Shown one piece after another: positions 48,343 to 52,611 of a stretch of DNA of 64,000 bases (positions are counted from its first letter, which is position 1; each line of letters starts with the position of its first letter). Both the position numbers and the translations under genes were made by a program. Source of the stretch: an uncultured Pelagibacteraceae bacterium (GTDB taxonomy: Bacteria > Pseudomonadota > Alphaproteobacteria > Pelagibacterales > Pelagibacteraceae); NCBI GenBank assembly GCA_902629215.1, contig CACOQC010000001.1, positions 62,001-126,000 of the forward strand, in the 5' to 3' direction. The notes beneath the pieces were generated by a model. The model was not told the DNA's origin and searched no databases. It was given only the letters and a program-made list of their open reading frames with translations.

Positions 48343-49833
48343 ATGAAGTTATTTTTTATACTGGGTAATCAATTATTTCCATCAAAATACTTGGACCGCT
48401 TCAAAAAAGACCACCTATTTTTTATGGCTGAAGATTACCAGTTATGTACTTATGAAAAACATCATAAGCAAAAAATACTTCTTTTCTTATCATCAATGCG
48501 CTCACATGCAGATAATCTTAAAAGAGATAAATTTAAATTAGAGTACATTAAAATTGAGGATAAAGAATTTAAGGATGATTATTTAAAAAAATTAAAAAAA
48601 GTAATTAGCTCAAAAAAAATAAAAGAGATTTCAAGCTTTGAAGTTGAAGATAAATTTTTTGAAAAAAAAATTAATCAATTTCTTAAAAAGGAAAAAATAA
48701 AATGGAATATCATTCAAACTCCAATGTTTTTAAACTCAAGAGAGGAATTTAAACAATATCTCTCCAAATCAAAAAAACCTTTCATGGCAACTTTTTACAA
48801 GGATGTTAGAAAAAAATCAGGAATATTGATGGGTTCAGACGGAAACCCAATTGGAGGTAAATGGAGCTTTGATGAAGATAATAGAAATAAATTACCAAAA
48901 AATATTTCAATTCCAAAGTTTCCAAAAATAAATGAGACTAATCATACCAAAAAGTTAAAACCAATTATTGAAAAATTATTCAAAGATCATCCAGGTAAAA
49001 CTGAAAATTTTTGGTTCGCTACTGAATATAATGACGTTGTAAAGCTTTTAAATTTTTTCATTAAAGAAAAATCAAATTTATTTGGTGATTATGAAGATGC
49101 TGTTGATCAAAAAGATAATGTTTTATTTCATAGTGCATTAAGTCCATATATTAATTTAGGTTTAATTACTCCAGAATTTATTATTAAAAAAGTTTTAGAA
49201 TTCCATAAAAGTAAAAAGATAAGATTAAATTCATTAGAAGGTTACATACGTCAGGTAATTGGTTGGAGAGAGTTCATGAGAGGAATTTATCAAAGTTATT
49301 CAAATGAAATGGAAACCGGAAACTTCTTCAAACAAAATAGAAAAATGAAAAAATCTTGGTATGAAGGCACAACTGGTTTACCTCCGCTTGATTATGCAAT
49401 TAAGAATGCTTTAAACTATGGATGGTCTCATCACATTGAAAGATTAATGATTTTATCTAACATTATGAATCTTTGTGAAATAAAACCTTCTATTGTCTAC
49501 AAATGGTTCATGGAAATGTTTGTAGACTCCTCAGATTGGGTAATGGTGCCTAATGTTTATGGTATGGGATTATTTAGTGATGGAGGAATTTTTGCAACCA
49601 AACCTTATATATGTGGATCAAGTTACTTTATGAAAATGATGGATTTTAAAAAAGGTGAGTGGTGTAACACAATGGATGGTCTTTATTGGAGATTTATTGA
49701 TCGTAATAGAAAATTTTTTCTGAAAAATCCTAGACTTTCTATGATGGTAAGAATTTTTGATAAAATGAAAACTGAAAGAAAAAAAATAATTTTGTCAGCT
49801 GCAGATAAATTTATCAAACAAAATACAATCTAG
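48343..49833 (+). CDS. Cryptochrome/photolyase-related protein of the FeS-BCP (CryB/PhrB-like) type
   Basis: [87 protein letters not shown] (cluster-type Cys). Confidence 0.93.
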
Positions 49834-50874: not shown

Positions 50875-51088
50875 TAAAATTTTTGAATGGGCAGGAGTTA
50901 TTACAGCAATATTATATTCTTTATTTGTGGCAATGAATATTGGCGTAGAGTTTTTTGGTTTTTGCTTATTACTTATATCTGCAATTTTAATTGGAATTTG
51001 GGCTTATAGAGGTGGTCATAGAGGAATATTATTTTTACAATTCTTTTATGCAACGGCAGGTATTATTGGAATGTTTAGGTGGTTTTAA
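50867..51088 (+). CDS. Small hypothetical membrane protein
   Basis: MNNKIFEWAGVITAILYSLFVAMNIGVEFFGF..., 2-3 TM; ATG at 50867 overlapping the preceding stop is preferred over 50840. Confidence 0.6.
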   Translation: MNNKIFEWAGVITAILYSLFVAMNIGVEFFGFCLLLISAILIGIWAYRGGHRGILFLQFFYATAGIIGMFRWF

Positions 51089-52224
51089 TTAATAGCTGAA
51101 ATTATTTTAGGAATATAATTTTTAAAATTAAAAAAACCCTTATTACAATATTGCCAAGAATACTGATCAAGTTTTCTATATAAAAAATCTATTTTTATAT
51201 TATTTGAATTTAGATAATCTAAGTTTTCACCCACAGTTGGATATAAAATATAACAATTTTCAATTTTTTTAATTTCACTTATATCTATGACTTCACAATC
51301 AATAGACTTAGCTTTTAACCTTTGTTCTTGGTCTTCGATTAATAAGGATTTAAATTTCACTACTTTTTCACTTAGTTTGATAGATCTATTTTCGTTTTTA
51401 CTAGAAATTAAATAAATTTTTTTAAATTTATTATTTTGAAAATCAGTGATTTCAAAAGAAAGATTATTTTCAAAAATTAATAGATTTTTATCATCTATAT
51501 TTTGTGGATTATTAAAATCTTTTTTTATGATTTGGTAAGTTTTTTCAGATACTTTTGGAGGAGCATCTTCATTTAATTTAATATTATTAAATCTATTATT
51601 AGTAAATTTTTTTATATTCCATTCACTTGCTAAATAATGTTTTCCTTGAGTTTGAATACCAGCGACCCATCTCCATCCAAGAGTATTTGATGCAGCGTCC
51701 CCATCATAAAGATGTTGCATAAAAAATTCCGCACCTAATTGCCAAGGTAGTTCTAAAGTAAAAATCCAAATACTTGCAAACCACATTCTTGTGTGGTTAT
51801 GTAAATAATTGTTTTCCTTCAGTTCATTTATCCATGCATTAAAACATTCAATATTAGTTTTACCTTCTATAGCATTAAGATAGTTCTGATTATTTTTAAA
51901 TTCTTCTTTAATTTTATTTAATTCCATTAAATAGTCTGACCAAACATTTGGTCTTAATTCTAACCAACCTTTCCAATATGTACGCCATAAAACTTCTTGT
52001 ATAAACTTTTCATTTTTTGAGAAAGAAAATTTACTAAGTGCTTTTTCAATTACTTCTTTTTCACCAATAACTCCGTGAGTAATGTAAGGAGATAAACAAG
52101 AAATATTGGATCTTTTCTCTGGTCCAAAATCAAAATTTCTAAGCTTAGAGTATTCTGAAAGATTATTTTCTACAAAATAATTTAATTTATCTAAGGCCTT
52201 GGCCCTTGAAGCTTCAAAATTCAT
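51085..52224 (-). CDS. Photolyase/cryptochrome FAD-domain protein with atypical domain order
   Basis: FAD domain at the N-terminus: CLSPYITHGVIGEKEV, EVLWRTYWKGWLE, HNHTRMWFASIWIFTLELPWQLGAEFFMQHLYDGDAASNTLGWRWVAG; C-terminal alpha/beta-like region. Confidence 0.88.
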   Translation of the reverse strand: MNFEASRAKALDKLNYFVENNLSEYSKLRNFDFGPEKRSNISCLSPYITHGVIGEKEVIEKALSKFSFSKNEKFIQEVLWRTYWKGWLELRPNVWSDYLMELNKIKEEFKNNQNYLNAIEGKTNIECFNAWINELKENNYLHNHTRMWFASIWIFTLELPWQLGAEFFMQHLYDGDAASNTLGWRWVAGIQTQGKHYLASEWNIKKFTNNRFNNIKLNEDAPPKVSEKTYQIIKKDFNNPQNIDDKNLLIFENNLSFEITDFQNNKFKKIYLISSKNENRSIKLSEKVVKFKSLLIEDQEQRLKAKSIDCEVIDISEIKKIENCYILYPTVGENLDYLNSNNIKIDFLYRKLDQYSWQYCNKGFFNFKNYIPKIISAIN

Positions 52225-52230
52225 ACTAAA

Positions 52231-52611
52231 TTATTTTGATTTTTTTTTCTTTAGACCCAATTTATCACTGTGTCTTAATCTTAAGATTACAATTGCTCCA
52301 GCAATTAAAACAATTGCTATAGCTTCGTAAACCAATGCAGTTGGATCCATTTCTTTTCCTTGTAGGATTATAAACCGCGCTAGAGCAGTAATGGCTATCA
52401 ACAATGGCAAAGTAATACTAATTGATTGTTGGTTCCAAAAAACTCTTACCATTGCTAGAACTTCTAAATATAGAAACATTAATAGCAAATCAGCTAGTGT
52501 TACTGATCGATTTTGAAACATTTTGCTCATTTCAATACCAACTGCAATTACTGTACTTATCAAAATGATAACCATCAAAACAAGTTGTAAATTTTTTGCT
52601 ATTTTTTCCAT
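52231..52611 (-). CDS. PsiE-like phosphate-starvation-inducible membrane protein
   Basis: LADLLLMFLYLEVLAMVRVFWNQQSISITLPLLIAITALARFIILQGKEMDP. Confidence 0.82.
   Translation of the reverse strand: MEKIAKNLQLVLMVIILISTVIAVGIEMSKMFQNRSVTLADLLLMFLYLEVLAMVRVFWNQQSISITLPLLIAITALARFIILQGKEMDPTALVYEAIAIVLIAGAIVILRLRHSDKLGLKKKKSK

Follow-up and report, generated by a model that had tools for sequence, protein, structure and literature searches.

The gene at 51085–52224 of the window, the 64,000-nucleotide stretch of uncultured Pelagibacteraceae DNA that was analysed, encodes a 379-residue photolyase in which the FAD domain comes first, and is a further member of the already known NewPHL class. The joint explanation that best accounts for the data (probability about 0.9) is a SAR11 NewPHL photolyase whose FAD domain would repair CPDs and whose C-terminal Z-domain is probably a shortened photolyase alpha/beta domain.

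A conserved gene of the NewPHL class

The gene and its immediate neighbor were delimited as follows.
51085–52224, minus strand: NewPHL-type photolyase gene (FAD domain plus Z-domain), 379 aa, ATG start, based on the ORF, Pfam, alignment and tree
52231–52611, minus strand: PsiE-like membrane protein, directly upstream, ending 6 nt before the photolyase ATG

The initial annotation had described a protein that begins in the FAD domain without an N-terminal alpha/beta domain, and Pfam and NCBIfam bore this out, recognizing the photolyase FAD domain alone (residues about 3–209). Upstream of the ATG the frame stays open for two more codons only (381 aa in all), so no N-terminal domain is hidden in frame. 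From this 5′ limit together with the adjoining upstream gene, whose distance had earlier been given as 7 nt, it follows that the FAD domain has no alpha/beta domain before it. The further statement that the missing domain was not simply split off upstream also held, as PF00875 matched none of the neighboring window genes covered by the scan.

Same-length orthologs with 84–95% identity were present in many Pelagibacteraceae single-cell genomes. In the FAD part of the gene, dN was far below dS (for example 0.08 versus 0.8–0.9), and the same was true of the C-terminal part (for example 0.10 versus 0.75–0.83), so purifying selection acts on both halves, the C-terminal domain included. Because of these orthologs and dN/dS values, 51085–52224 is a real, conserved gene, neither a fragment nor a chance ORF. 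The missing N-terminal domain and the small genome might have suggested a truncated, decaying photolyase gene, yet the same observations, and a DPRP-type photolyase neighbor in 69/69 loci (described below), led us to reject a truncated pseudogene, which we regard as having next to no chance of being correct.

The FAD-first architecture has already been published. Phr7/NewPHL was described as an N-terminal FAD domain followed by a C-terminal Z-domain (PMC9426592); that paper traces the class to Emmerich et al. 2020 and reports that the D. shibae and M. mesophilicum members are CPD photolyases with single-stranded DNA (ssDNA) as substrate. NewPHLs or SPLs were likewise reported to repair CPDs in ssDNA and to have an "inverted domain topology", the characterized proteins being D. 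shibae A8LJA9 and M. mesophilicum M7YZC8 (PMC13274461). The name SPL, attributed to Xu et al. 2021, and a proposal that SPLs are ancestral appear in PMC9649867. The label given to such proteins by NCBI is only "FAD-binding domain-containing protein", and no curated NCBIfam model covers the 379-aa photolyase above its cut-off.

We assigned the SAR11 gene to NewPHL by its architecture and the published description of the class, with which it shares the N-terminal FAD domain lacking a preceding alpha/beta domain, the CPD residues, and a short Z-domain behind the FAD domain (residues 222–379, conserved in 27 aligned sequences). After the FAD domain it has no C-x2-C...C motif of the Fe-S type, unlike the photolyases of L139, L142 and L189 discussed below. 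Within the class, as compared by published description, it represents a Pelagibacteraceae branch that adjoins a DPRP-type gene. Class I CPD photolyases have the same FAD fold and active-site residues but the opposite domain order; the SAR11 protein has no PF00875 before its FAD domain, and Pfam sees no antenna domain at its C-terminus. DASH cryptochromes/ssDNA photolyases act on the substrate reported for NewPHLs, CPDs in ssDNA, but differ in domain order, and the match to TIGR02765 (crypto_DASH) was weak and confined to the FAD domain (66 versus a cut-off of 317 bits). Neither the PF04244 N-domain nor the Fe-S cysteines of the FeS-BCP/prokaryotic (6-4) group were found, and that group formed a separate clade in the tree.

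The catalytic domain and its proposed function

The following features were located in the N-terminal half.
51580–52224, minus strand: N-terminal FAD-binding catalytic domain, residues 1–215, based on Pfam, PDB alignment and profile match
51994–51996, minus strand: E77, equivalent to A. nidulans E283 in the 1owl alignment, invariant in 27/27 sequences
51781–51801, minus strand: HNHTRMW, residues 142–148, invariant except T145; M147 is equivalent to A. nidulans M353
51685–51705, minus strand: DGDAASN, residues 174–180; D174, D176 and N180 are equivalent to A. nidulans D380, D382 and N386

Pfam PF03441 (FAD_binding_7) matched residues 74–198 (E 7e-19), the class I photolyase structures 1dnp, 1tez and 1owl aligned to residues 4–197 (E 1e-16), and the profile of the N-terminal domain matched that of the class I FAD domain with E 7e-35. 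Equivalent residues were numbered by alignment to A. nidulans photolyase 1owl, with an offset of 206 in this part. In addition to the residues listed, W80, R81, N143 and W161 correspond to A. nidulans W286, R287, N349 and W367, and W184 and W186 to W390 and W392. In 27 aligned, diverse Alphaproteobacterial sequences, E77, W80, R81, N143, M147, W161, D174, D176, N180 and W184 were all invariant, and W186 was kept in 26/27. The roles of these aligned active-site residues in CPD repair are established for the class I family; we take E283 to contribute to CPD binding, M353 to be a CPD-photolyase signature position, and D380, D382 and N386 to bind FAD. Judged by this alignment, the SAR11 protein has retained the residues on which FAD binding and CPD repair are expected to depend. 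At the position of the distal electron-chain tryptophan, W314 of A. nidulans, it has F109. Electrons must therefore take another route in the final step, for which the invariant W131, W148 and W153 are candidates.

The displaced distal tryptophan of the classical triad would suit a photoreceptor or regulator of the cryptochrome kind that repairs no DNA, as would the coexistence of class I and DPRP-type enzymes in the genome, where the 379-aa protein is not the sole member of the photolyase family. Against such a role, E77, W80, M147, W186 and N180, the CPD-repair residues, are invariant or nearly so, and two members of the class repair CPDs in ssDNA according to PMC9426592; we consider it improbable.

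CPD repair, to which the conserved active site points, would proceed in the N-terminal helical domain, which would bind FAD and carry out the chemistry: photoexcited reduced FAD would give an electron to a CPD lying near E77, W80, M147 and W186, and the dimer would split. By analogy with the D. shibae and M. mesophilicum proteins, the preferred substrate may be a CPD in ssDNA. The Z-domain is unlikely to hold an antenna pigment; in the most likely arrangement it lies against the FAD domain and covers the flavin, a shielding reportedly seen in the class. A DASH photolyase was not found in the window's genome (84% complete), and the enzyme could take its place; the three FAD_binding_7 proteins of that genome are a class I photolyase, the DPRP photolyase and the 379-aa photolyase.

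Origin of the C-terminal domain

Two features were located in the C-terminal half.
51088–51561, minus strand: C-terminal Z-domain, residues 222–379, with a predicted five-strand alpha/beta fold; probably a degenerate photolyase alpha/beta domain
51124–51156, minus strand: C-terminal signature W357-x5-GFFNF, residues 357–367, the best conserved stretch of the Z-domain

Every one of the 27 aligned Alphaproteobacterial sequences places the FAD domain first and has the GFF signature region at its C-terminus, in which G363 and F365 were invariant and W357 was kept in 25/27. Pfam gave no match above cut-off in the C-terminal part and no DNA_photolyase domain (PF00875) in the Z-domain. In a full-length AlphaFold2 model built from 58 close Pelagibacteraceae sequences, residues 234–350 were mostly predicted with pLDDT 70–90 and the FAD half with low confidence (30–50). 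The Z-domain modeled alone reached a mean pLDDT of 74 and a pTM of 0.75. Strands and helices alternate in this model, and the five strands of the core are preceded by a short one. A Foldseek search of the PDB with this model placed the (6-4) photolyases 9q8f (E 0.0057), 9hnk, 8ijy and 4dja at the top, and photolyases held ranks 1, 2, 6, 8 and 18 with the highest probabilities (1.00; TM about 0.5 by query length, E 0.006–0.02); no PDB match passed E 0.001, and Rossmann-like folds other than photolyases, such as eIF2B, ranked closely behind. Judging from fold and length, the matched part of the (6-4) photolyases would be their N-terminal alpha/beta domain. The prediction thus agrees with the initial annotation in placing an alpha/beta domain last. 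Compared directly by hhalign, the Z-domain matched the class I alpha/beta domains weakly (E 0.005, probability 7%).

A closer relative was provided by photolyases that place the alpha/beta domain second. PMC9426592 describes such proteins as Phr4/Phr5 (split) and Phr6 (fused), and the split and fused FAD-first genes considered here fit those descriptions. In several Alphaproteobacteria (L135–L137, L139, L179, L184–L187 and L189), a gene for a FAD-only photolyase is followed by an adjacent, often overlapping gene of about 140–170 aa. Deinococcus plasmids encode fused FAD-first photolyases (L142:3815-5185, L180:2104-3477 and L181:2116-3534) with a cysteine-rich motif of the Fe-S type between the domains, and in Deinococcus sp. 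QL22 the FAD and alpha/beta pair is encoded by separate genes that overlap by 4 bases. A split of another kind was seen on a Halorubrum plasmid (L183:2290-3888), where a photolyase of normal domain order is annotated as two genes, a 129-aa "photo-lyase" and then a 380-aa FAD-binding protein.

The partner domain of the FAD-first photolyases matched the class I alpha/beta domains by hhalign with E 1e-10 and a probability of 97%, and PF00875 without reaching the curated cut-off (E 2e-4 to 0.013, with 7e-4 for the C-terminus of the fused L142 protein); by these profile matches it is a photolyase alpha/beta domain. The Z-domain profile aligned with it colinearly over the whole length (score 32.1, E 1.3e-4, probability 54%), compared with scores of 19.8 for USP, 10.8 for a response regulator and at most 17.7 in 100 column shuffles. 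The full-length NewPHL and FAD-first profiles were also colinear across both domains, the FAD domain supplying most of the score. Compared with the Phr4/5/6 partner, which is still weakly PF00875-like, the Z-domain is more degenerate, ends in W-x5-GFF and lacks the C-terminal PF00875 of Phr6, and some Phr4/5/6 FAD domains carry a C-rich motif of the Fe-S type.

In the FAD-domain tree, the 27 Alphaproteobacterial NewPHL sequences formed one clade (support 100/100). A moderately supported branch (70/92) set NewPHL, split and fused proteins, the last two being the nearest FAD group, apart from the rest in unrooted trees, in which groups other than these three carry a long-branch warning. What unrooted trees can bear, with this moderate support, is a shared origin of NewPHL and the split/fused lineage rather than descent of one from the other.

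Homology of the Z-domain to the photolyase alpha/beta domain is likely, at moderate E-values. A conventional photolyase could instead have lost its N-terminal domain and gained an unrelated C-terminal domain of the common Rossmann-like alpha/beta fold, as the lack of a Pfam match, the 7% probability of the direct class I comparison and the closeness of eIF2B and similar folds would allow. This alternative has to contend with the photolyases leading the PDB matches, with a Z profile that is colinear from the first strand to the C-terminus with the FAD-first partner and beats both control families and all 100 shuffles, and with the nearest FAD clade, where that partner likewise follows the FAD domain; we judge it rather unlikely. 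We lean toward the Z-domain being a degenerate photolyase alpha/beta domain, with NewPHL/SPL sharing its origin with the split/fused Phr4/5/6 lineage. The shortened alpha/beta domain would most likely have come to stand behind the FAD domain via a split-gene or fused FAD-first ancestor. The initial annotation had proposed a circular permutation, which we rejected in the strict sense: whole domains are re-ordered, with no evidence of permuted strands inside a domain. Since the Z-domain resembles the photolyase alpha/beta domain and is colinear with the FAD-first partner, "domain-order inversion" fits better.

Distribution, synteny and significance

One further gene of the window belongs to this locus.
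48343–49833, plus strand: second photolyase-family gene, DPRP N-domain plus FAD domain, of the prokaryotic (6-4)-like type, 1.3 kb from the NewPHL gene

Among 61 genomes, a full-length or fragmentary NewPHL copy was present in 25/37 of the same genus (Pelagibacter), many of these incomplete and the window's own included, and in 2/24 of the neighboring family, as counted from individual match rows with class I photolyases left out. Full-length copies occurred in about 24 of 289 Alphaproteobacterial genomes besides the window's own (about 8%), so the class is patchy in Alphaproteobacteria. Searches of viruses with the protein and the alignment confirmed no relatives, and a phage collection gave partial FAD-domain matches only. 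Three Alphaproteobacterial plasmids from different taxonomic orders (L140, L141 and L143) carry a gene for an AarF/ABC1/UbiB kinase adjacent or close to NewPHL.

The 69 complete Pelagibacteraceae loci had the order argG, m152, psiE-like gene, NewPHL, small membrane gene, (glutamine amidotransferase) and DPRP photolyase, the DPRP gene being present in every one. In the DPRP photolyase of the window and its relative in L264, a 10-residue gap takes the place of the C-x2-C and subsequent C found in FeS-BCPs, and an Fe-S cluster is probably absent, to judge from the alignment; in this the protein resembles Prochlorococcus PromaPL, which is likewise described as having no Fe-S cluster.

The SAR11 distribution and synteny are new in this work, as is the moderate evidence for a degenerate Z-domain. 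Few bacterial groups of the sunlit ocean are as abundant as SAR11, and the conserved NewPHL together with the second photolyase gene suggests a small light-repair locus. The domain comparison bears on the question of whether the short FAD-first form of photolyases represents an ancestral or a derived state. If the Z-domain is indeed a degenerate alpha/beta domain that shares the origin of Phr4/5/6, SPLs would be derived enzymes in which the domain was relocated and worn down, which would argue against their being ancestral photolyases that never had it.
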